From a virus, in IMG/VR virus record IMGVR_UViG_3300030328_002624, positions 19,514 through 52,031 of that record: a stretch of 32,518 bases of DNA. One strand, given 5' to 3'. Position numbers and translations under genes: made by a program. The notes below the pieces were generated by a model. It had not been told where the DNA came from. It searched no databases and saw only the letters and a list, made by a program, of their open reading frames with translations. Below, in pieces: positions 5,588 through 32,500 of the stretch. The stretch's first letter is position 1, and every line of letters begins with the position of its first letter.

Positions 5588-7876
5588 TCAGCTATCACCT
5601 TCATTGGCGTCTGCCGAGTTCATTAGATTTGCTTGAGCGTCATCTAATCTAGCTTTATATAAGCTAGTTGCCATTTCAGCCCTGTTAGTCTGTTTATCCA
5701 GACCTGAACTGAATTTTTCTACTTCAAGTCGTTTCTTAGCATGAACTTCTTCACGTTCTGCTGTTTGTAGGTCTCCCTTGACTTGTTTTAATTCTTGTTC
5801 TAGCATTTGTATATGTTGAGCCATTTGCTGCATTTCACCAGAACGCTGCAATACTCCCTCTACATCAACTAGCTCAGATTTCTTCAATACTTCTACCTGG
5901 TCAATTAGTCCAGCTGAGTATAATTCTTTATAAGTGTCTAGTAATGCCATTCTATTTGTAGGTAAAGTAGAGCCCGATACAACAACAATATCATATCTTC
6001 CTACTCCAATGTCATGGAATTTTTTAACTGTCCCATTGTCCATTTCTTTATAGAAATTAAATCTTTCTGATTTTTCTGTACCATTAGGTTGAACTAATCT
6101 AATAACCTTTTCTTCAGTATATATTTGCTGCATTAATGGTATTGCTACTTTAGCTACGTGATTTAACATATTTTCTATGTCGTCTCTACGAGACTTAATT
6201 CTTCTTTGACCAAACTCGTCTACTACTACAGTTCCTCTATAAGTAGATGGAGCACCCTGTGAGCTTCCTTGCATCAATTCAAAGATACCAAACCCATATT
6301 CTAGGTCATACTTAGCATCAGACTCGTTTTTATATAATTCATTTGGCAATGGAACTGGACCAGCTACAATAGGAGCTCCAAGTTCTGCATCAAACTCAAT
6401 AACACTTGTTCCTGCTTTTGCCCACTCTTCTTCAATTTGTTTTAAATCTGCTGAACCACGAGGAATTAATAGCTTTACATTAGTGCTTGTACTAGCATGA
6501 GCTATAATTAGTGAACGTATTTTGTTAATATATTCTTGTAATGGTCTAAATATTCTAACATCAGAATCTGGATATGGTGTACGATGATGAATATTCATTA
6601 ATGGAACAATAGGATATTCCTCTATCGGTAATTGTCTTTTGTAAAGTAAAGCATCTCCACATGAAACGACCATGTTAACCCTAGGAACTTGGACTAAATT
6701 ACATGTTATCGCTCCAAGTCCCTCTAATTCCTCTACTGTCATAGGAATTAATACAACTGTACTACCTGGAATAGAATCATCATCTTCTGGACCAGGAACT
6801 CTGACAGGTTCTTGAGGAATGATATTCCCCTGTTCATCCATTTCAGGGTCTGGTATTTCAAAGTGATAGATAGGACCATCTTGTTCTATATAACTAAATA
6901 AATCTTCTACAGACTCTTCATCAAATATAATTTGTTCTTCACCTGTAATTTGTTGCAGTTTTATATAATATACTTTTCTGTATGATTCGTATTCGCCCTC
7001 ACTCATTAAAAATTCTCTATCAGAAAAAGGTTCATAGCAATTATACTCATTTGCCATTACTTTAGTATAACGCTCCATGTATTTACGTTTTTCATGGATT
7101 CTACTATCTTCGTCTCCAGGGAATAATTGTCCTTCATTTGCTGAAAGTTGGGTCGTTGGTTTATCTTCTTGAGATGTAAATGTTCCCATCGCATTTGAAT
7201 TTTTAATAATATCTATATAATCTGGATATAACTGTTCTGCTTGTTCATCTGTAATATATTTTGTTACAACAATATTTGCAGCATCACGAGCATAAACATC
7301 TTTTGAGTTAGGGTCTATATAGACATCTAATGGATTAATAGCTTTAAAACAAACCTCACCTTTACCTAAATCTGCCATAGGGTCTTGATAAACTTGCATA
7401 ACTCCCATTCCACCTACATAGTAGTCATCTACAATTCTTTTTAATTCTTCGTCCCCGCTTGAATATTGCCACATATATTGAAATAAATCTGAAAACACTT
7501 TAGAAGTTGCTCTATCTGAATCTTCTCTTCCAGTTGAACGGAATTGAGGAGAATTGTATGTAAGCAAAGATTTTGCTGTTTCTACGATAGGGTGAATACG
7601 ATTTACAACAATAGGAGCTTGTCCACGAGCTTCTAGAACATCAGACTCCTCTAATGTCCATTGAGCTCCTGCTCTAAACTCTACTGCTTCTTGAAATTTT
7701 TGAGCCCATACTTCACGTGCGCTGCTATAATCTTGAAATAGCTCTAAAGACTCTTCTACTTCTTCGGGGATATTTTTAGTGTTAATGTTACCTGATTGGT
7801 AATCAAAAATAAACTCTTTATCTTTTGATGATTGAGTTCTTGTACTGCTTACTCGATTTTGAATCTTTTTTGGCAT
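5588..7876 (-). CDS. Portal protein (P22-like)
   Basis: 762 residues. It forms the dodecameric ring at the unique capsid vertex through which DNA is packed and ejected. The N-terminal third has the P22-type signature: FRAGAQWTLEE, then RGQAPIVVNRIHPIVE, then DDYYVGGMGVMQVYQDP, then FKAINPLDVYIDP. An acidic insertion lies near residues 340-375. The C-terminus (about 650-720) is a long coiled coil (MLEQELKQVKGDLQTAEREE), as in the P22 barrel. Length fits the P22 class. The 5' end overlaps a small upstream gene in another frame. Confidence 0.9.
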   Translation of the reverse strand: MPKKIQNRVSSTRTQSSKDKEFIFDYQSGNINTKNIPEEVEESLELFQDYSSAREVWAQKFQEAVEFRAGAQWTLEESDVLEARGQAPIVVNRIHPIVETAKSLLTYNSPQFRSTGREDSDRATSKVFSDLFQYMWQYSSGDEELKRIVDDYYVGGMGVMQVYQDPMADLGKGEVCFKAINPLDVYIDPNSKDVYARDAANIVVTKYITDEQAEQLYPDYIDIIKNSNAMGTFTSQEDKPTTQLSANEGQLFPGDEDSRIHEKRKYMERYTKVMANEYNCYEPFSDREFLMSEGEYESYRKVYYIKLQQITGEEQIIFDEESVEDLFSYIEQDGPIYHFEIPDPEMDEQGNIIPQEPVRVPGPEDDDSIPGSTVVLIPMTVEELEGLGAITCNLVQVPRVNMVVSCGDALLYKRQLPIEEYPIVPLMNIHHRTPYPDSDVRIFRPLQEYINKIRSLIIAHASTSTNVKLLIPRGSADLKQIEEEWAKAGTSVIEFDAELGAPIVAGPVPLPNELYKNESDAKYDLEYGFGIFELMQGSSQGAPSTYRGTVVVDEFGQRRIKSRRDDIENMLNHVAKVAIPLMQQIYTEEKVIRLVQPNGTEKSERFNFYKEMDNGTVKKFHDIGVGRYDIVVVSGSTLPTNRMALLDTYKELYSAGLIDQVEVLKKSELVDVEGVLQRSGEMQQMAQHIQMLEQELKQVKGDLQTAEREEVHAKKRLEVEKFSSGLDKQTNRAEMATSLYKARLDDAQANLMNSADANEGDS

Positions 7877-8045: not shown

Positions 8046-9533
8046 CTACAATAATCGCCAATTTTTTCTTTTAGCTGCAAATAGGTTATTTTCCTGCTTT
8101 TTAATAACAGTTTTATGTGCTGGTTTATAAGCATTCTTATTTGCATAGAAAAATCCGTCAAGTAAATCATCGTGCTTTCCCCTGGGATATAATAGTAATT
8201 CGTCTACTAATGGTTGCATAGATTTTTGCATGTGTACTTTCTTATTAGCAAACAAAGGCTGCAAACTTTCTAATCTATACGACTTGGATGTTCTAGGATT
8301 CTCTTTTATTTCAAGACCAGGGATAAACAATCCCATCTCTGCAGACTTTTCTTTAATGTACTGACGTAGCATTTCCTGATATCCGACAGACTCAATACGT
8401 GTCTTAGCACTTCTATAAGTTTTAAAGTTACTGATAATAGCATCTGCTAGATTTAAAGGTTTAGCTCTTTTTCTATAATAAGGAAGAATGAATCTATTGT
8501 TATCCTTATCTATTGCCATGTTAAATACGACAGAATAGTCGGCACCTCTTTTTGTACTGGAGGCAGGGTCGACGCCTGTAAACACGTTTACAGGTCTACT
8601 CTCATCTACTTCCTCACCATTAAGGTTCGTCAGGATGAGAGTTGACAACCCTTGCTCATTTTTCTCAACGAATCCTTCGTAGTATTGAAAATCTTTTTCT
8701 TTAAATAAATTTTCTTCATCTCCAACAATCTCACATAAGTATTCTCTGTAAAATACAGAGATACGATTGATACTATCCAATTCTTTTTTCTTTTGTATTA
8801 ATTTTTCAATAGGCCATACTGCTGGCCATAAAGCTTTCTTTTCAGACATATTCGGTGAGAAGGTTAAATTCTTCCAACCCTCCATATCTTTTAATGTTTC
8901 CACTAAGCATCTTTGATGCTGTGGAGTACCAATAACACAAACCTTTCCTCTCATCGGGTCTAAAGAAGGAACACCAGATTGCAGCAACCATCTCAAATTA
9001 AACTCCATGGACTCTGCTGTCTTGGTATTATTTTCATCTTCAGGGTCATCAAGGATTAAAAGAGTAGGTCGTTGATTTCCGTGTTTAATACCACGAATCT
9101 GCTGACCAGTACCTTTGCACATAATAACAGAGCCATCTTTTAACTCAATCTCCGTGTTTGTCCATTTCTTTGCTGATTGCTGCCCCCAGTATCCAAAGAA
9201 ATGTCTAAACTCCTGGGAATAATCTAAAACGTCTTTGATTGTACCTAATAGCTTTGTGGCGTGACCTTGCGTACGAGACACAAGAACAATAACTTTAATA
9301 CCAGGGTCGAACATCAAATGGAATAAAGGATAAACACCAGCAACAATGGAAGACTTAGCGTGTCCACGAGGAGCAATTACATTTAACTGCGTCACGTCTG
9401 GTTTTAATAATTGTTTAGAAATGTCATAATGAAATCGTGGAGACTCTTCACTAAACATATTCGGCATAACCATTCGGCCGAATAGCAACATATCTTGTTG
9501 CATATCTAATAAAATTTTATCTTTGTTCATCAA
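8046..9533 (-). CDS. terL: Terminase large subunit (ATPase-nuclease)
   Basis: 495 residues. It is the DNA-packaging motor and cuts the concatemer. The ATPase domain carries the Walker A-like loop APRGHAKS (54-61) and Walker B LLILDDPED (about 158-166) with the catalytic acidic pair. A coupling motif follows (CVIGTPQHQ, about 199-207). The RNase H-like nuclease domain starts at TGVDPASSTKRGADYS (319-334), with further acids near GKHDDLLDG (about 465-473). Full length. The start overlaps the end of a 44-codon gene, and small terminase lies just upstream. Confidence 0.96.
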   Translation of the reverse strand: MMNKDKILLDMQQDMLLFGRMVMPNMFSEESPRFHYDISKQLLKPDVTQLNVIAPRGHAKSSIVAGVYPLFHLMFDPGIKVIVLVSRTQGHATKLLGTIKDVLDYSQEFRHFFGYWGQQSAKKWTNTEIELKDGSVIMCKGTGQQIRGIKHGNQRPTLLILDDPEDENNTKTAESMEFNLRWLLQSGVPSLDPMRGKVCVIGTPQHQRCLVETLKDMEGWKNLTFSPNMSEKKALWPAVWPIEKLIQKKKELDSINRISVFYREYLCEIVGDEENLFKEKDFQYYEGFVEKNEQGLSTLILTNLNGEEVDESRPVNVFTGVDPASSTKRGADYSVVFNMAIDKDNNRFILPYYRKRAKPLNLADAIISNFKTYRSAKTRIESVGYQEMLRQYIKEKSAEMGLFIPGLEIKENPRTSKSYRLESLQPLFANKKVHMQKSMQPLVDELLLYPRGKHDDLLDGFFYANKNAYKPAHKTVIKKQENNLFAAKRKNWRLL

Positions 9534-9651: not shown

Positions 9652-10402
9652 GAACATCCTGTGTTTTAGTAGCGACAAGTTTCTTTTGCTGTTTCTCATA
9701 GTTAGCTTCAATCTGACTAGACATATCTAATTCTAGTGTTTCTGTCACTTGCTTCTGTTTTGGAGCCATATCTAAAAATATGGACAATTCTTTAGCGGCA
9801 CGAATCATGTCAGCACTATTTTCTTTTACCTTTGCTACTTCGATTGCATCTTTAATAGTATCTAATACGAATCCTTCATCAATTTCACGGTCCACCAATA
9901 CTTCTTTTAACTTTTCTTCAATCATTTGTTTCGCCTCTTTTGTTTTAAATAATCTTTTTGCAGCTATAGCAGGGTTTTCTTGGTCAGGCCTATATAATGT
10001 GCCTATTTTATTCATATCTGGCTGTAGACCTGCCATTTTGTAGCTTAAAAAGGCATCTACTGCTAATTCAGCCCTACTACTTTGTGCTTCTAACTCATTA
10101 TAAGACTTTGTAGATACATTACATAGGTTTCCAGACATATAATGAGGTTCAAACTCTAGTGTGCTTGTTTTATGTACCCATTGTCTTCCAAATGGAAAGG
10201 TAAGGACAGTTCCTTTCTTGTAGGAACTATGTTGTAGACACTCAGAGACGTAATTATCGTCACTAACACCCCAATCAGACTCTTTGCAGTCTTTCCAGTG
10301 TTTATAGATGATACCTTCTTCATCTGCTTCTATAGCAGTATAGACAGGATATACCTTAGACTTGAACTTGTTCTTCTTCAGCTTCTTCGTTAAGTGTATC
10401 AT
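9617..10402 (-). CDS. terS: Probable terminase small subunit
   Basis: 261 residues immediately upstream of terL. The first ~85 residues are an extra domain with a Trp/Cys-containing segment (HWKDCKESDWGVSDDNYVSE). The rest fits small terminases: a DNA-binding-type helical block with NPAIAAKRLFKTKEAKQMIE, then EGFVLDTIKDAIEVAKVKEN, then ADMIRAAKELSIFLDMAPKQ, the 'ALk..e.Lg.flgm' end of the family. It recognises phage DNA and loads terL. Moderately confident from the C-terminal pattern and position. Confidence 0.65.
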   Translation of the reverse strand: MIHLTKKLKKNKFKSKVYPVYTAIEADEEGIIYKHWKDCKESDWGVSDDNYVSECLQHSSYKKGTVLTFPFGRQWVHKTSTLEFEPHYMSGNLCNVSTKSYNELEAQSSRAELAVDAFLSYKMAGLQPDMNKIGTLYRPDQENPAIAAKRLFKTKEAKQMIEEKLKEVLVDREIDEGFVLDTIKDAIEVAKVKENSADMIRAAKELSIFLDMAPKQKQVTETLELDMSSQIEANYEKQQKKLVATKTQDVHEENNKDINNK

Positions 10403-10909: not shown

Positions 10910-10977
10910 ATATTAAAGTAAAGCCAATATTTGAAAAATACAACTAGAATGTGTGCACGTGATATATATGTATCCTA

Positions 10978-11377
10978 CCCCATACGGATATTCGTCGCTC
11001 GGACTAATTTTCGTTGAAAATTCGTCGTTCGAGCAACGCTCCAGGCATGCTGCCCCATGCACAACGGTGTTGAGCACGGGCATGCCTGTCGCTTCGCATC
11101 CACTACGGAGAGACACTCCGTAGTGAAGCGTTGCTCTTCCTCGCTGTGTGTCAACCTCCGATTAACGTCGGTAACACACAGACGCAAAACACGAAAGCCG
11201 AGGCTTGAGCACGCTCAACCCTGTCTTGCTCACGCTACGGCGTTGCCTTGACCGCTTGAGGAACAAAGGACCGAGCAAGACAGCGTCTTTCTTTTCAACT
11301 CATCGGTGTTCTTCCCTTCGGTCATCACACGTCTTATATTTTTTTAGTCCTCGCTCCTCACATATATCCGTATGGGG
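10978..11377 (+). ncRNA. Structured domain 1 (about 400 nt)
   Basis: Closed by CCCCATACGGATAT (10978-10991) pairing with 11364-11377, 14 perfect base pairs, backed by GGACT (11001-11005) with AGTCC (11346-11350). A three-way junction follows: GAGCAACGCT (11031-11040) with 11127-11136 encloses CAGGCATGC/GCATGCCTG (11042-11050, 11080-11088) and CACTACGGAG/CTCCGTAGTG (11101-11110, 11116-11125). Further helices: TGTGTGT/ACACACA (11145-11151, 11174-11180) and CTGTCTTGCTC/GAGCAAGACAG (11221-11231, 11273-11283). Open frames here are interrupted and lack ribosome binding sites, so it is read as non-coding. The strand is not determined by the domain itself. Confidence 0.6.
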
Positions 11378-11418
11378 GGACCCTTACCAAAAACCTTTAT
11401 ATTAATACCTTGCATCAT

Positions 11419-11507
11419 ACTGACTGCAAGTGTTCACATGCGATAAGCCCCAATCGCTATGGCGATTGCGATATCGCATTGTGTTCACACTTGACAAAGG
11501 AGTCAGT
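11419..11507 (+). promoter_or_regulatory. Long leader hairpin abutting a start codon
   Basis: Three stacked helices: ACTGACT (11419-11425) with AGTCAGT (11501-11507), CAAGTGT (11427-11433) with ACACTTG (11487-11493), and TGCGATA with TATCGCA. Their apex is a CCC/U hairpin. The AAAGGAG site (11496-11502) lies in the bulge and the 3' strand, and the last paired base precedes the ATG at 11508, so folding should restrict ribosome access. Confidence 0.55.
11439..11478 (+). promoter_or_regulatory. CCC/U hairpin, copy 1
   Basis: Outer helix TGCGATA/TATCGCA, internal loop AGCCC against CGA, inner helix CAATCGC/GCGATTG (11451-11457, 11462-11468), loop TATG. It differs from the majority copies in the upper two pairs, with both sides changed. 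It sits at the tip of the leader hairpin of a 42-codon frame. Confidence 0.65.
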
Positions 11508-11636
11508 ATGTTGCAACTATTTCGCCTTTTGATGAAAACGCCGTTTAGTTACTGGAAAGCAATTCTTGCTTGTCCAGATAACGAACCGTTGCATTTTCAT
11601 CATGACGGCTGTCCTTGCTGTTGGAGGAAATCATGA
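11508..11636 (+). CDS. Possible 42-residue Cys/His protein
   Basis: Frame starting MLQLFRLLMKTPFSYWKAIL and ending FHHDGCPCCWRKS. A canonical AAAGGAG lies five bases before the ATG and a terminator 48 bases after the stop. The C-terminal HFHHDGCPCCW cluster could bind a metal ion. The region is GC-richer than the early genes and its bases also form nested hairpins, so it may be a chance frame inside a structured RNA. The ideal ribosome binding site is the main argument for translation. Confidence 0.45.
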   Translation: MLQLFRLLMKTPFSYWKAILACPDNEPLHFHHDGCPCCWRKS

Positions 11637-11684
11637 GATTACCTCCAAGCAAAGTCATCAACGTGTTTTGACACGTTAATGAAA

Positions 11685-11722
11685 GAAATCCCCTACTATT
11701 CGTAGAGGATTTCTTTTTTTTT
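11685..11722 (+). terminator. Intrinsic terminator
   Basis: GAAATCC-C-CTAC (11685-11696), loop TATTC, GTAG-A-GGATTTC (11702-11713), then nine T (11714-11722). An 11-bp stem with one C/A mismatch followed by a pure T-run is a classic rho-independent terminator on the plus strand. Confidence 0.8.
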
Positions 11723-11865
11723 GCTAAAGGTTTTTGTCGCTAGATTTCTGGCTAGTGCCAAGAAAAGAACCTTCTTGTCACTATCCTTCTATCTGCTCTT
11801 CCTGTTTCGTCATCCTTACTCTTCCACTCTGCATACCGATACGCAACTTTTCTCAACGCACAGCC

Positions 11866-12028
11866 AGCCGTTCAAACGTTTTATCTCCCAGGGACTCCAG
11901 ACAAACGGCGAATAAACACTCCGTCAATTCCCCAATCGCTGTGGCGATAGGTATTGACGGATATTCGCCCGTTTGTCATTCCGTCCAACTGGGAGATTTT
12001 TCTATGGAAAATCAAACGTTTGACGGCT
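11866..12028 (+). promoter_or_regulatory. Leader hairpin that buries RBS and start codon
   Basis: Nested helices, outside in: 11866-11881 with 12014-12028 (one bulge), ATCTCCCAG (11883-11891) with CTGGGAGAT (11989-11997), GACAAACGGCGAATA (11900-11914) with 11962-11977 (one bulge), and CCGTCAAT with ATTGACGG. The GGGAG site (11991-11995) is fully paired and the ATG at 12004 sits in an internal loop. If folded, translation of the frame at 12004 should be off. Confidence 0.6.
11921..11960 (+). promoter_or_regulatory. CCC/U hairpin, copy 2
   Basis: Outer helix CCGTCAAT/ATTGACGG (11921-11928, 11953-11960), CCC on the 5' side, inner helix CAATCGC/GCGATAG (11933-11939, 11944-11950) with one A/A mismatch, loop TGTG. 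It forms the tip of the long leader hairpin before the 87-codon frame. Confidence 0.6.
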
Positions 12029-12267
12029 GCACTTTCATCGTTTTCTCTGGCGAGAAAACAGATGACGGCAAGGCTGTTATTGCGTTGAGAACCCGTCACG
12101 CCAACAGAGTTGGCTACGGGGCAGTTGCGTATCTCAAGTCTAAAGACTCTGTGACTCAAGTAGCAAGCTACTTGCAGTCAAGAGGTCTTGACTTGTATGC
12201 AAGAGGTCAGAGTAAGTCTGGCAACTCGCTACGCTTCGGCATCCTCAACATGAAAACCAAGGCATAA
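12004..12267 (+). CDS. Possible 87-residue protein in a structured RNA
   Basis: Starts MENQTFDGCTFIVFSGEKTD and ends RFGILNMKTKA. GGGAG lies eight bases before the ATG. The amino-acid make-up looks like a small alpha/beta protein (VIALRTRHANRVGYGAVAYL, then VTQVASYLQSRGLDLYARGQ), but no family is recognised. The same bases form perfect hairpins: 12040-12059 (loop TGGC), 12100-12114, 12157-12174 and 12176-12193. Composition is unlike the AT-rich early genes. Either a foreign gene with strong secondary structure or a non-coding RNA with a chance frame. A short terminator region follows. Confidence 0.5.
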   Translation: MENQTFDGCTFIVFSGEKTDDGKAVIALRTRHANRVGYGAVAYLKSKDSVTQVASYLQSRGLDLYARGQSKSGNSLRFGILNMKTKA

Positions 12268-12282
12268 ATGCCTAGGTTTTCG

Positions 12283-12368
12283 AAGAGCAGAAATGGATAG
12301 TGCCCCCTCACGTCTTCATCAAGTGAAAAAGAACGACTCGTCGTTCGGGGGGAAGGCTCTTTTTTTTT
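12283..12368 (+). terminator. Branched terminator-like structure
   Basis: AAGAGC (12283-12288) pairs with GCTCTT (12356-12361). Inside, CCCCC (about 12303-12307) can pair with GGGGGG (12347-12352), with hairpins CTCAC/GTGA and AACGA-CTCG-TCGTT. Nine T (12360-12368) follow. It probably ends a plus-strand transcript. The stem is longer and more branched than usual, so strength is uncertain. Confidence 0.5.
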
Positions 12369-12447
12369 GGCACTAGCATTTTTTTCTAATGTAGACAAAT
12401 CAAAGTAATGATTTGTCCGTCTTTCTTTTTCAGAAATCTAGCGACTC

Positions 12448-12510
12448 TTGCATTGTATTTTTGCAGGTTTTTGGACGGGTCCCACGGATACTGTTACCAA
12501 AAAAATGCAA
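12448..12510 (+). ncRNA. Structured domain 4 (63 nt)
   Basis: TTGCATT (12448-12454) and TTTTTGG (12468-12474) together pair with the unbroken right arm CCAAAAAAATGCAA (12497-12510), leaving a 13-base bulge on the left. The loop carries GGGTCC (12477-12482), complementary to GGACCC in the junction strand between domains 1 and 2. It is the smallest of the five adjoining domains. Confidence 0.45.
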
Positions 12511-12560
12511 CGGGGAAACTACCAAAAAACATATTGTTTGTATGACAGGATAAATTAGAC

Positions 12561-12645
12561 TCAACTAGTTTTCGGAACCTGATGACCTAGGGCTCCCCAA
12601 TCTCTCCGAGATTTGTTCGCTTTTTGAGTTCCGAAAACCAGTTGA
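12561..12645 (+). promoter_or_regulatory. CCC/U hairpin, copy 3, on an 18-bp stem
   Basis: TCAACTAGTTTTCGGAAC (12561-12578) pairs with 12628-12645 with a single G-U. The large loop holds CCCCAATCTC, loop TCC, and GAGATTTG (12595-12615), the consensus with one extra T. It is the first helix of domain 5, the same 5' position the element takes in domains 2 and 3. Confidence 0.65.
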
Positions 12646-13265
12646 TAGCGGTAAGTATGGTATGTTGAAAAGATTTGCAGGGGTTACTAGCGTAACCTCT
12701 GCTCAAAATTGGAATGAATGGCGAAAGTCCCAATACAATACCCAGGGGAAGCGTTCTGGGCATTCCATTAGTAGTATATATGACCTATTACCATTGACGC
12801 GCAATAACAGATAGGATTAACATGGGCTGTTGATAGGTCATATATATGTAAAGAATTTTTGTAAAGAATTTTAAGTTATTAATATGCAGTTAATACCTTA
12901 AAATGGTTTTAAACATTGTGAAAGAGGCTAGATAAGCCCTCTACAATGAGTTGTATAGTCCGATAGGACCTTGGGCGTATCAAATGATACGGATAAGCCA
13001 GCCAATAATGCTGGAATACAATGTTGTTTGAGTAACAAAGATAGGAGTTTATCCTACTTATATGCATAGTCAAAATGGTCAATTACTTGGAGCCATTCTA
13101 TGCCATATTTATCTGCTCAATGAATAGGTAGTCAGAGATGACATATCATGCCTATTTGAGAGTGCTCTGGTAAGAGTATAAATATGTAAGTAAACGTGTC
13201 TTCAGAGAAGATGACGTAAAATCTAACAAACATGAGAGTGATACCAAAACCTCTCTAAAACCACT

Positions 13266-13303
13266 TATATGAGGGAACTTACGTTCCCTTATATATTTTT
13301 TTT
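13266..13303 (+). terminator. Strong intrinsic terminator of domain 5
   Basis: TATATGAGGGAAC (13266-13278), loop TTAC, GTTCCCTTATATA (13283-13295), eight T (13296-13303). Thirteen base pairs with one G-U and a clean T-run. This fixes the plus strand and a likely 3' end for the ornate RNA near 13303. Confidence 0.9.
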
Positions 13304-13388
13304 GACAATATGTTTTTTTTGTAGTTTCAGATACATTATTGTCATATAACTTGTGTTACTTGTCTGTAAAATAACCTAAAACTTGTTC

Positions 13389-13432
13389 GGAATAACCTCC
13401 CCAATCTCTCCGAGATTGTTTCAGCAATTTCC
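13389..13432 (+). promoter_or_regulatory. CCC/U hairpin, copy 4
   Basis: CCCCAATCTCTCCGAGATTG at 13399-13418, one of four identical copies: seven-pair stem, TCC loop. The outer pairing is weaker than in other copies (GGAAT 13389-13393 with ATTTCC 13427-13432). It is the only copy followed by another structured RNA rather than directly by a ribosome binding site. Confidence 0.65.
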
Positions 13433-13449
13433 TTTTAGAGCAAAGACTT

Positions 13450-13563
13450 AAGAGAGATAATGTCATACGAGAATTCGTAGGTGTAATAGAGCATAGAATT
13501 ATGTTCAATAATGTTTCAACATTAAATATTGCTTCCCAAGTGACAAGGCCAATTATCTCTCTT
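13450..13563 (+). ncRNA. Three-armed structured leader
   Basis: AAGAGAGATAAT (13450-13461) pairs perfectly with 13552-13563, then GTCA (13462-13465) with TGAC (13541-13544). Three arms follow: TACGA-GAAT-TCGTA, GAGCATA-GAAT-TATGTTC (two arms sharing a GAAT loop) and AATAATGTT/AACATTAAATATT. The cloverleaf-like fold has no tRNA T- or anticodon-loop features. It lies in the leader of the 45-codon gene at 13619. Confidence 0.55.
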
Positions 13564-13571
13564 TAGAATTT

Positions 13572-13603
13572 TAAATCCCCAATCCTAACGGATTGTTTAT
13601 TTA
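13572..13603 (+). promoter_or_regulatory. CCC/U hairpin, copy 5
   Basis: The clearest copy. Outer helix TAAAT/ATTTA, symmetric internal loop CCC (13577-13579) against TTT (13596-13598), inner helix CAATCC/GGATTG, UAAC tetraloop. Both sides of the sixth inner pair differ from the TC/GA of copy 4, and the stem still closes. AAGGAGG follows two bases after the outer helix. Confidence 0.75.
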
Positions 13604-13618
13604 TAAGGAGGAATCATC

Positions 13619-13756
13619 ATGAGGTGTCCAATTATATATAAGGACGATTTAGTCAAGTATGTGCATGGATTAAATAAATCCGTGCCTATATCAAATATAC
13701 GTAAAATGTCCAAAAAACAATTATATGCTATTTGGTATAATCAGAATAATGTATAA
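13619..13756 (+). CDS. Small basic protein
   Basis: 45 residues starting MRCPIIYKDDLVKYVHGLNK and ending QLYAIWYNQNNV. The AAGGAGG at 13605-13611 is the strongest ribosome binding site in the window and decides the start. The IRKMSKKQLYAIWY segment resembles the short helical 'ls..qL.aIy.n' module seen in many small phage proteins. It is the first gene of the early region. Function unknown. Confidence 0.65.
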   Translation: MRCPIIYKDDLVKYVHGLNKSVPISNIRKMSKKQLYAIWYNQNNV

Positions 13757-26568: not shown

Positions 26569-29500
26569 TTATTGGTCAGATTGCTCTTCTTGAGGGTTAT
26601 TTGCATCAATTTGAGCCCTTCTTAAGCTATGAATCTTATGTAATGGTATTCCAGTCATAAAGTCTACTGCCATAGCTGGTGAATCAATAGTTCTTTTAAC
26701 GTCTCTAATCATTCTACCGAAAGGTAAATAACTATATCCATAGAATTGTTTCATTTTATCAAAATCTCCACTTAATATTGCACTTGTAGGTGCAAGCACT
26801 GTACGAGCAATAGGTGGCGTAACAATAGATAATGGAGCTAAAGCTGGATGCGGCCATTGACTAAAGAACGCACGTTCTCTATCTTTTTCATCTCCAAACA
26901 ACCATTGTGCAGTATCTTGTGCCCATGACATAGGTGGAGATAAAGCATATTCAAATATACTTGCTGTAAATATATAAGATAATGCCATTGACATCATATC
27001 CATTGTAAATTGTCTTCTGCCTTTTTCTGTAGCGTAAACATCTCTTTCCCATCCTGCTGCCTTTGCAACTTTATATATACCTTCTTTTGGTCCAAATCTT
27101 CTTCTTACACTATTCCAAGCATAAGGATGGAATCTTGTCATAACACGACCCATAGAGGTTTGAGAGTAATTAGAACGATGAGCAGCATGATACATGAATT
27201 GTGATGCTTCTACACCTTTAATAGCTCTTTGAACCAATTCTGGAGAGTTCCATTCTATAAAATCTAATGGAGAATGTTCCATTCCAGTTTTTAATAGTTC
27301 TCTAGCATTCAAATAATGAGCTAGGAATGAACGAGTACGTAATTGATATTCAGACCATGACATAAACGAAGCACCAGCTTTGAACACTCCTTGCCCTATA
27401 CCACGTTCTCTTCTAACTTCAAGTAATGTCATATCCATAGCCTTATGCCATTCAGCTTTGTTCATTGAACCTATTTTACCTTTATTTTTTGAGAAGAATT
27501 TATGAGCAACTTCAGTTGCAAACGTTTTAGCTTTACCTTTACGTAAAGCTCTATCTAATCCAATCTCTGTTATGAACATACCTTCTAATGCACCAGTACT
27601 TTCAATCCAGTCTAATATATCTTCATAGTTTTTAATAGTTTTCTCTACCTTATTTCCTTTAGAATCAATACCTTCAAATCTTTTATTCTTCATACCTACT
27701 TGATTTAGCAGATAATCTTCTCCACCAAATTTAGTAGCACGATATATATTCATAGCACCTACATCTGCATATAAATTTTGACCACCACCCAAGAAATTGG
27801 TAATAGTTGTTTTAGGGTGAGATAATAATGAAATAAGCTCAAATTTAGCTTCCCAGGCACTAAATGCTTGTAATTTTTTAGATAATAGCAATCGTCTATT
27901 TCTTAAGTTGCTCGTAGGTATATCTTTAGTAAACCAAGGCTTAAATCCTGTCATATCTTCAAAACGCATTGCCATACCTGTCCAAGCTTCATCACTTACC
28001 AAGGTATAAGCCAATTTAAATTTACCTATCTTATCTATATTTTTAGGGTCTGCTAATTCCTTAGCGTTTTTCATTCTAAGCTTATGCAATTCTTTTTCTA
28101 CTCTTTGTTTATTTTTAGGATACTTATTTTCTATAATACGTCTGTCTATTCTATCTGGTTCTATATGGTCAGCTACATCCTGAAGAAATCTTTTTTGATG
28201 CCCTTGAAGCACCTTCCAGTTATTATTAACTGCATTTCTATCTAAATCATTTTCAATAAACTTACCCAAAAGCTCTACTTCACCCTTTTTAATACCATGG
28301 AGGTCTAAACTTCTCAAGGAAGCATATCCTAACATATTTGAGGCAGCATCTTTAATATAAGAACTCCAATTGTCAGTAAATTCTCCAAAAGGTCTAGTCT
28401 TATCAAAGTGTTTTATATGAGTATTCATTCTAAATCCAGCGTTTATATCAAAGAAGTTTTTAGATATAGCTCCAGAATAGCTTTCAATAGCTTTTAAATC
28501 TGTTTTCCAGAAAGGAAGGAATGCCTCTGACCTACTCTTTAAATTTCCTGCAGTATAATCTCCAGCAAAACTTTTCTTTCTTGACCTTAAAAGTTCAGTA
28601 ACGGAATTATAGTTATCCAAGCTTTCATTGAAAATAGAAGAACCCTGACGCATTTCTAGTTCTTCTTTAACTCTAAGCTTATAATCCATTCTAGCTTCCT
28701 GTAATGTAATCTGACCATTAAAATACTTATCTCTTAAGTCTGCTGGTAGTTCTTTTGCTGGTATTTTTCCAGCTATCTCAATAATTTCATTCATCCATTC
28801 AGCCAGCTTTTCTCTTTTAGCTTTTGTTTCAAAGTGACCTAATTGAGGAAAGTAATTACTGGACCTACCATCTTTACCTACAAATTGCCCAACTTTATGA
28901 ACCCCTAATGGATTATTCTTTTTATATTCTTTAATAAATGACTGTATTTCCTTATCTGAAGCATTTTTCTTAAGCTGTCTTTGGGCTGCATCCTTCATTT
29001 CTAAATGGTATTTAAAATATAAGACATCATTTATGGAAGGTAAACTATCTACAGTTTTTTGAGTTGTTTCTGTTATAAATTCAATACCTCTATATAACGA
29101 ATCAACTTTCTTCTCACTTATAAAGCCATCTTTATTTAAAAACATTTCATTTAACGATAGAACCCATTTACTATCTTTGTTTTCTTTGATATCATAGGCA
29201 TTATTCACATATTCGTTTTCAAACCCGTTTTTTTGTAAAATAACCTTAAAAGGATTCGTCTTATCCGTAACCTTACTCTGAACTAATCTTGTATTTATAT
29301 CGGTCAAATATTCAGTAATAGTATTATCTATCATCTTTTTAAATTCTTTAAGAGTAACTGTTTTATCTGCACCATTTTTACCTATACCAACTAAATGATA
29401 CTTTTTATCTCCCAAGTCCTTTAAGTTTTGTTGACTGATTTCATATTGTTGCTCAACATACTCTTTTGATTTTCCTTCCATTATCTTTTTCAGATAAGTT

Positions 29501-32500
29501 CTATTAGAGCTTGTTCTTTTTCTACGCCTACTGTTGGTTTTAATTCTTTTAGTTTTTTCCCAGGTTACAGCATCAAAAATGATTTCAAAGTCTTTCATAA
29601 CTTCAGGGTCGTCTGTGTCAATATAGTCAAATAAACCTTTCAATCTTTTTTCCATATACTCATTGTAGGCAGAACTAATTCTATGGAAAGAGTCTGCAGT
29701 TTGTCTTACCATTTCTAACGTACTTGTAGGAACTTCCAGTGAGTATGTTTTCAACTTACCATCATCACCAATTAACTTAGCATCTGGCATGAATTGCATC
29801 TTTTTCTCAAATGGTATTAAATCTTCTGCCACTCTTTTAAATAAAGATAAGTTTGACCAATTCCCTAATTTTGGAGGAACTTTTTTCAATTCTAATACAT
29901 GCATTTCTTTACCATTATTGATATAGTCTTTTTCTTGCTTATATTTCAATATAGGATTACCGTCTTTGTCAATTTCCCATCCTTCTGATTTAATAATATC
30001 TGATAAGTCTTTTTTATCAAACTTACCTAAGCCCCTATCTATTACATTGTAATAATCTTTTCCAATCTTTACTATTATTTCTGATTTTCCAGGTTCAAAC
30101 CAATGTTCCTTCATCCATTCTGCAGTTCTTATAGTTGTAGTTTTTAATCCTTCAGAAACCTTTTCTCTGTTTTTAGTATCAAAACCGTCTTTTTTACCTC
30201 CAAACTGTATACGAGCATCTTCTCTTTTAACTATATTAAGAAGACCTTCTACTTTTCTTACTATATTTCCTCTATCAAAATATCTCATATTAAGATAATC
30301 GTTAAACATTGCTAAATCATTTGTTGTCATATTACCAAAAGACTGTCTAAAACCTTTAAATGCTTCCATAGCAGAACCAAATTCAACCTCTAATACCTCA
30401 GATAACTCTGGATTAGCTCTTACAAATTTAGACAATCTAAGTAATTCTTTTTCACCTCTAGTTGTAACAACTGTGAATCCAAACTTCTTGATAAGTTCTT
30501 GCATACGATATTCTTTGAATTTTGGAAACTCTGGAGTTTGTCCTTTCTTTGGTTTTTTAGGAGTACCAGGGAGTTCTTCTTTTTCTGGTTTAGTAGTTTC
30601 TTCTTTTTCTGGTTTAGTAGTTTCTTCTTTAACTTTCTCTGGCTTAACAGACTCTTCTTTAATCTTCTCTGGCTTAGAAACGTCTTCTTTAACAATTTCT
30701 TCTACAACAATCTTATCTAGAACTTCTTCTTCAACTTCAATAGCTTTTTTCTCAGGAGTGTTTCGTTTTTTCTCTCTAGCTGGTTTTTTAGCTTCTTCAA
30801 CTATTTGTTCAATAGCTTCAACTCTGTTTAAACTTTTAGCTATTCCTGGAAGCTCTTTAGAGGATGTGGTTAAATCCATTGCGTTTGCTCTATCTAATAC
30901 ATTCTGTAAAAATCCAAAATATTCTTTTCTATTCTTATGGCTAACAACACTACTTTTCATTAAATGGTCAACACGAGGTCTCATTTTATTTATAACTTTT
31001 CCTCTCATAGTATAAAGCTGCGACAAAGTTAAGTCAGGAGAAGGTTGAGGGTCGGCGCCTTCTTCTTTTACCCAGTCTAATTCTCTATATTTATCAAGAC
31101 CTTTAACCTTTCCTTCATACCCCGCTCCCTCATTTAGAATAGTTTCATTTATAACTTTATTTATAGTATTCAATTCAGCAATATGTTTTTCTTGTTTAGC
31201 CTTAAGAGCTTGATTGTTTCCTCTTTGTAATATAGGATTTGTCATCATCCACGCATCATAAACTCCCTCTGCTAGCTTCCCTGGTTCACTATCTCTTTCC
31301 CATCCTAGATGTTTTTTAAAGTTAGAAAGCCATTTGTTTTTAGATAAAGCAAATAACTGCTGTATATCAACACTGTCAGGTTGATTGTTTAGAACTTTAT
31401 CAGCAGAAGATTTATTACTAAAACCTTCTTTTTGAACCCTATCTGCTCTTTCTTGAGAGTCTTGCTTTATAGAAAAAGTTTCTTTCATCACTTGTCTAAT
31501 CATTTTATGAGCATCTGACGGAGTAACTCCTCTTGAAACTAATTCATTGACTAGTGCTTGTGATTTGGACATAGCATAGCTCATACTTATCATATCTGTT
31601 GCAGCATCCCAAAATAATTCTTCTGAATTTTTTAAAGCTTTACCCTTTAATGGAATCATTTTACCTTCTTTATTCCTTTTAATTCCATAGAGAGCATCCA
31701 ATTCTTTTGGATTCAAAACAGCTTCATAAGGGAAGTATATTTCTAACTCTTTATATAACGGATTAGACTGATTCTCTTTAGCTATAGCGCTAGCTAATTG
31801 ATAAATCTTGGTCTTATTATAATGATTAAAAGGACTAATATCTATTTCAATTTCTGCAAATATTTCTGCTAAACTTGTATAAAAATTACCAGTATTCATA
31901 TGACTTCTTCTGTCATGTGCTCTTCTTGCGTCTGTTCCACCTTCTAAATAATATTCTGCTATCTTTCGAGCTGATTCTGGTGTTGTAAAACTTTTAGTTG
32001 AGCCAAATAAAGAATCATGGAAATCTTTCATAACTCTTAATCCTTGAAACCCTTTGTTTGTACCAGTGCTAAACATCTTATGGAACATAAATTCTGCTGG
32101 AGCATCTTTGACTAACTCTACCTTTCCAGTCTTTTTGTTTGTTCCATATATATCAAAATACTTATGGAAAGCTTTAGTTGTTGAAGGTCCAGCGTGTCCA
32201 GCTCTTGCATAATCAGCTGAATCTGCAGCTACGTTAATTCCATTATAGCCATCTTTTACTATGGTCATAAAATCTAAGCCATCTTTTACTGCTACATAAA
32301 AATTATCGTATTCTCCTTTAATCTTTACATATGCTTTTGGTTGCTTTTTCTGCCATTTCTTTTTCTTGGGAGCTCTTGTTGCAGCCCAATCTCCTAGGTC
32401 ATATAAATTCTTTCCTTCTATTACGCTTCTACTTCCATTGGTTTGTATCGTATCATATAGCCATTGCATTCTAGTATAGGCATTTACAACAATACCCATA

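Follow-up and report, generated by a model that had tools for sequence, protein, structure and literature searches.

What kind of molecule occupies the long, structured stretch ahead of the early genes of an uncultured phage, and what might it do there? We addressed this question for region D (12518-13325, plus strand) of a DNA window of 32,518 nt, corresponding to positions 19514-52031 of the 52-kb IMG/VR virus record IMGVR_UViG_3300030328_002624. The original prediction for this region was an ornate non-coding RNA of about the size of GOLLD and ROOL, which could be a member of those classes, a relative or a new class.

The proteins encoded in the window include TerL, a P22-type portal, a DnaB-like helicase and a tail fibre (PHROGs, Pfam and further searches), which identifies the DNA as that of a phage. 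Early genes lie on the plus strand and start at 13619, late genes lie on the minus strand, and region D sits between these divergent operons within 2.7 kb (10910-13619) of mostly non-coding DNA with a higher GC content than its surroundings. TerL matches among isolate phages have an identity of only about 25%, which points to a phage family that is uncultured within the searched collections; its source is presumably marine, to judge by some of the metagenome identifiers. Giant late proteins are encoded in the window (26569-32499; 1976 aa) and in L016 (3-5318; >1772 aa); Pfam gave no match to them, and their sole family hit was a weak PHROG of unknown function.

Region D folded considerably better than its shuffled versions on the plus strand (MFE -243.2 kcal/mol compared to -184.2, sd 6.0; z -9.8), and other boundaries and seeds gave z values of -7.1 (12512-13330) and -7.2 (12540-13303), which bears out a large ornate RNA of the predicted kind. 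The opposite strand folded likewise (z -7.8), as expected for any DNA rich in inverted repeats. A scan across the complete window at 200-nt intervals revealed a mild general bias (mean z -1.3) that was far stronger in 11001-12200. We also confirmed the individual elements that had been described for region D, namely the closing repeat (12515-12529/13314-13328, 93% complementary), the perfect 14-bp helix (TATATATGACCTAT/ATAGGTCATATATA, within arms 12775-12793/12828-12846), the four-way junction, the terminator and, with more than ten helices found, the proposed minimum of ten (Table 1). As the arms of the outer repeat bracket the terminator, the outer helix would form only on transcriptional read-through. 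The global MFE fold pairs 12902-12912 with 13087-13097 and thereby clashes with the evolutionarily supported helix P1 described below, so that some helices of the single-sequence overall fold must be wrong.

Table 1 Coordinates of the features discussed, as positions in the window.
Feature	Position	Strand	Basis or remarks
P22-type portal	5588-7876	minus	late gene
TerL	8046-9533	minus	late gene
Element A, promoter-like box and structured early leader	10945-11377	+	z -5.1
Module B	11405-11725	+	z -10.2; CCCC hairpin; terminator-like stem 11683-11715, then T9
Module C	11736-12445	+	~710 nt; z -17.3; perfect 15-bp closing helix; terminator-like T-run; relatives in L017, L018
87-aa ORF in module C	12004-12267	+	69-74% aa identity in L018/L017
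Outer closing repeat of D, 5' arm	12515-12538	+	pairs with 13304-13328
D1 module 1	12561-12645	+	long stem 12561-12579/12626-12645, arms 94% complementary, capped by CCCC-hairpin element 12595-12615
D1 hairpin, 11 bp (GCAGGGGTTAC/GTAACCTCTGC)	12677-12702	+	MFE
D1 three-way junction with GAAA-loop arm	12710-12767	+	sequence homologues
D1 hairpin with perfect 14-bp helix	12774-12847	+	complementarity
D1 hairpin 12872-12883/12889-12900	12872-12900	+	MFE
D2 conserved RNA class	12904-13263	+	homologues, covariation, independent folds
D2 P1, closing helix	12904-12910/13257-13263	+	
D2 P2	12914-12920/12942-12948	+	
D2 P3	12950-12956/13016-13022	+	encloses three hairpins (four-way junction)
D2 P4, long-range	about 13025-13030/13227-13232	+	encloses P5-P8
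D2 P5	13064-13069/13098-13103	+	P5a 13074-13079/13092-13097
D2 P6	13121-13130/13149-13158	+	
D2 P7	13164-13168/13173-13177	+	
D2 P8	13194-13203/13207-13217	+	
D2 P9	13234-13238/13251-13255	+	
Intrinsic terminator of D	13266-13303	+	13-bp stem, 4-nt loop (13266-13295), T8; 2 nt past P1
Outer closing repeat of D, 3' arm	13304-13328	+	complementarity and MFE fold
Module E	13442-13571	+	20-nt arms, 85% complementary; downstream of D terminator
CCCCAATC with hairpin	11448, 11930, 12595, 13399, 13577, 14251, 16392, 18241, 19881	+	

Region D had been taken as one RNA; the structured region is real, but sequence comparison indicates that it is a composite of two parts, a conserved 3' half of 360 nt (D2) and a variable 5' stack of modules (D1), set within a hypervariable locus. 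A blastn search for the RNA among the first TerL relatives returned nothing, and homologues were found later by protein-frame and pattern scans. Searching with region D alone, nhmmer detected D2 homologues in three contigs (L041, E 4.5e-5; L051, 1.2e-4; L035, 6.7e-4), a pattern built from the most conserved D2 hairpin matched 12 IMG/VR contigs, and a looser pattern matched 13 besides the window, bringing the total to 14 loci. A covariance model of the 120-position D2 core, scanned over 97 sources, recovered these 14 loci and none other; its E-values are circular for its own members, and the scan is informative only on absence elsewhere. The hairpin pattern did not occur in species genomes of bacteria and archaea (84,980 searched), and blastn gave no match for region D among isolate phages and plasmids or for two D2 homologues among isolate phages. 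All examined carriers belong to the same phage family, as judged by TerL, portal or shared early genes. This distribution indicates that, among the collections searched, the D2 class does not extend beyond a single uncultured phage family. Its members measure ~340-410 nt and align from P1 to P1, and the window copy is the outlier and most divergent member (about 61-66% identity where aligned).

Separate MFE folds of the window copy and four homologues (L112, L115, L104 and L105) largely followed one plan, with which a further homologue (L108) agreed only partly. Covariation was counted for the structure predicted from L115 alone, on MAFFT alignments that were not guided by structure. In an alignment of nine sequences (A4), 93.3% of cells were paired and 30 of 110 pairs had changed on both sides, compared to 12.0 in shuffles (sd 2.2; 0/500) and at most 6 with a slid partner, the latter being the stronger control since it retains the sequence relatedness that inflates the shuffle tests. 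With 13 sequences (A2), compensation was found in 50 of 118 pairs (31.7 in shuffles, sd 3.1) and in 119 cells (49 in shuffles), with 10-17 in the slid control. The core (A7; P5, P5a, P6, P6a and P7 in 11 sequences) was 98.0% paired and held 26 compensated cells, compared to 6.3 in shuffles (sd 2.0) and at most 3 in the slid control. Overall, compensatory changes back P1 and about ten further D2 helices. P1 itself is wholly replaced between subgroups and still paired (GGUUUU/AAAACC, GUUCGU/ACGAAC, AUGUGU/ACACAU and UUAUUA/UAAUAA), and a hand-picked helix table, given as an illustration only, has 40 of 54 positions compensated. The covariation that the original prediction called for in homologues is thus present, and it indicates that the D2 fold is kept by natural selection through compensatory change. 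Several pairs are G-U in all A4 members, which would be C.A mismatches on the opposite strand; these invariant pairs identify the plus-strand RNA as the molecule under selection. Stops interrupt all six frames of every member, and the large conserved core includes invariant single-stranded stretches.

Known families did not account for this RNA. Neither the window nor the remainder of the contig had an Rfam match at the gathering score; between 11000 and 13900, the matches at E<=10 were weak and unrelated, with none to GOLLD, ROOL, OLE or HEARO, and at E<=1 there was no relevant match at five D2 homologue loci. tRNA searches of the window, the rest of the contig and the D2 homologue loci were likewise negative, and literature searches of open-licence papers yielded no description of the D2 RNA or of the early RNA locus. 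Of the three affiliations proposed at the outset, a new class is therefore favoured, and membership of or detectable kinship with GOLLD, ROOL, OLE or HEARO is not supported. We are close to certain that D2 is a real, previously undescribed RNA class.

The 5' half consists of further, separate modules. Its three-way junction occurs in at least nine related contigs (80-89% nucleotide identity in L020, L021, L023, L025, L060, L076, L091, L092, L094 and L096), where it stands without D2, beside other modules or by itself; its alignment has 91% mean column identity and two compensated pairs, and a pattern scan returned known loci only. Module 1 has a weak nhmmer match in L017 (5482-5541), and the hairpin bearing the 14-bp helix has a 70% identical stretch in L040. 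A translated search with the 50-codon frame at 12662 led to four contigs that share only 12710-12780 (86-89% nucleotide identity). The frame is not conserved as protein in homologues, with frame-breaking 1-nt insertions in L091, L076 and L060 and stops shortly upstream in L019 and L020, in agreement with the earlier view that region D holds no convincing gene.

Just upstream of region D, 10940-12445 contains three more structured domains (z -5, -10 and -17). The box of element A reads TAGAATGYGTG..GTRATATATA and its closing helix (10978-10991/11364-11377) has 14 of 14 bp; many TerL relatives have the box and a CGTTGA loop at a comparable place, where their early region starts, and a pattern scan found two loci. 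Element A is possibly a put-like antiterminator. The 87-aa ORF of module C has changes biased to third positions in its relatives; the module also contains a 39-nt stretch that is nearly identical at synonymous sites. Module B contains a 42-aa ORF (11509-11637; MLQLFRLLMKTPFSYWKAILACPDNEPLHFHHDGCPCCWRKS) with a good ribosome-binding site and a Cys/His-rich C-terminus, which was not seen by eye in the matching stretch of L017 or L018. Each of the three modules that stand in tandem in L017 (4009-4700) has a CCCC hairpin and a U-tract, after which come GCAG and the 3' arm of a unique closing repeat. In these three modules and in window modules B, C and D, the outer arms enclose the module's own U-tract, as 12515-12529/13314-13328 do with the D terminator and 4009-4022/4265-4278 with a U-tract of L017. 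Helices of this type require read-through to form, which suggests either that the U-tracts sometimes fail to terminate or that element A gives antitermination.

The motif CCCCAATC occurs ten times in the window, always on the plus strand, where 0.32 copies are expected. A hairpin with a stem that varies with compensation follows the motif, except for the copy at 10269, which lacks such a hairpin. Several copies immediately precede the ribosome-binding site of an early gene, and modules B, C and D have one copy each; in L017 the element forms a CCCC bulge in long hairpins. The CCCC hairpin may be a hairpin promoter or an RNA-protein site. For a hairpin promoter of the N4 virion-RNA-polymerase type, the giant late proteins gave no corresponding match in PHROGs or Pfam.

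Relatives showed a similar arrangement. An alignment search with TerL collected 80 loci whose TerL is 76-87% identical. Of the relatives checked, 39 had a usable gap after an early gene, and this gap was strongly structured in all 39 (median z -6.4), unlike control stretches in TerL coding sequence (z -0.35). This early locus has a fixed place behind the conserved leader (element A) and the first small gene, and in many members the start of a module is marked by the box TACCCTACAA, an A-run and then TGTAAT. Different phages have modules in common at shifted positions (L042/L073, 95% over 150 nt; L042/L055, 90% over 115 nt), and L055 contains, elsewhere in its array, a module that matches part of module E at 84% identity over 107 nt. 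A 165-nt structured module is present or absent at one site (L019 4840-4990, L020 181-340, L044, L042 and L043); its ends are inverted (ATTACTTAATGCG/CGCATTAAGTAAT), the strings GCAGATACGG and AGTTAAANAATRCGTGCG are conserved in it, and the insert of L019/L023 is 97.6% identical to that of L044. Relative to L022, the L020 insert is flanked by a direct 7-nt repeat, TTGTAAT, which at this single site hints at an insertion mechanism. Modules are always oriented in the direction of the early genes, and an Rfam search on 12 relatives gave no match at the gathering score. The early locus of this family is hypervariable and holds exchangeable structured RNA modules that are shared mosaically.

With respect to function, the explanation we prefer is that region D represents a new ornate phage RNA family, one cassette of an early RNA locus, which is transcribed early and probably acts in trans as a decoy or inhibitor; taking identity and role jointly, we give this an even chance. 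The RNA would be made early in infection, as a section of the early transcript that is freed either by termination or by a nuclease cutting at the closing helices. The behaviour of the locus suggests that the freed RNA could then act in trans on a host target, in host take-over or counter-defence. The context of such a role comprises the early-strand position, the terminator in the window phage, the variable presence of D2 across the family and the differing genes that follow it from phage to phage. Cassette-like variation at a fixed early position resembles, by analogy, what is seen for accessory anti-host functions, and trans action on host targets would explain why different modules stand at one place within one phage family. 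More tentatively, the whole early locus could be the RNA counterpart of an anti-defence island, with interchangeable, self-contained cassettes, D2 among them, that would be acquired, lost and reshuffled and would each act in trans on a different host factor after release via their closing helices.

It is possible, though we think it rather doubtful, that D2 and its neighbours are instead cis leader elements of the early operon, whether attenuator, put/nut-type antiterminator, riboswitch or translational control. All elements precede early genes and are encoded on the same strand as these, D2 of the window is followed directly by an intrinsic terminator in the manner of an expression platform, the family-wide conservation of element A, where the early region starts, is what a cis leader would show, and several early-gene start sites have a CCCC hairpin on their 5' side. 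However, the next ORF behind D2 lies 68-356 nt away and differs in nearly every D2-bearing phage, even between L107 and L110 or L104, which argues against a dedicated cis regulator; moreover, D2 is carried by only some family members, is bigger and more ornate than usual attenuators, and has no obvious T-run directly after P1 in its other members. A scaffold of the GOLLD/ROOL type, in which an abundant RNA would assemble into a homo-oligomeric cage, appears unlikely. Region D has the size, the ornateness and the phage origin for it, together with a conserved 3' half and a less conserved 5' half as in GOLLD (PMC12286853), but it has neither an Rfam match to such families nor a tRNA neighbourhood, the modules that make up its mosaic 5' half are also found elsewhere without D2, and D2 alone reaches only 340-410 nt.

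The position between divergent operons and the folding of the opposite strand would also suit a feature that acts as DNA, such as a replication origin, a packaging site or a recombination hot spot with cruciform-forming inverted repeats, and the gain and loss of modules, with the TTGTAAT repeat around the L020 insert, shows active recombination. We nevertheless consider this very unlikely, given that the conserved G-U pairs exist on the plus strand only, the terminator is on the same strand, the modules are always oriented like the early genes, and hairpin loops and junctions are conserved in an RNA-like manner. Least credible to us, and highly improbable, is a ribozyme or degenerate self-splicing intron: the large conserved core with its invariant single-stranded stretches could be read in this way, but D2 has no Rfam match to group I, group II, RNase P or small self-cleaving families and lies between genes, not inside one. 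A group I or group II intron had been considered specifically and was rejected, D2 being intergenic at every locus examined.

Few large structured phage RNAs are known (GOLLD and ROOL, of unknown function), and D2 adds a class that is supported by covariation and has no detectable kin. The family also offers a natural experiment, in which close relatives (terminases 76-87% identical) bear different structured RNAs at one early position; as a module can be present or absent in otherwise similar phages, its function is testable by comparison and by expression in trans. This suggests that phages may diversify RNAs as they diversify early anti-host proteins.

Among the known systems closest to region D, GOLLD has a conserved 3' half and a less conserved 5' half and, like ROOL, is a phage RNA often found near tRNA islands (PMC12286853). 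Region D is also phage-borne, large and ornate, with a conserved 3' and a variable 5' part, which is no proof of kinship; in contrast to GOLLD, it has no covariance-model match (E<=10), is not near tRNAs, has a D2 core of only 340-410 nt, and lies in an early-gene locus with a module mosaic as its 5' half. ROOL, an ornate phage or prophage RNA of ~600 nt, resembles it in ornateness and phage origin and differs in its helix plan, and region D lacks a match to its covariance model, a tRNA island and a conserved core beyond 340-410 nt. OLE and HEARO are likewise large structured RNAs, but bacterial ones, and region D matches neither covariance model and sits in a phage early locus. The HK022 put and lambda nut leaders are structured RNAs that open early transcripts of their phages. 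Element A could act likewise, whereas D2 greatly exceeds such leaders in size, lies away from the transcript start and has differing genes behind it. Early accessory and anti-defence loci of phages consist of hypervariable, exchangeable cassettes at a fixed early position; the locus described here shows the same cassette behaviour, with the difference that many of its cassettes are structured RNAs instead of protein genes.
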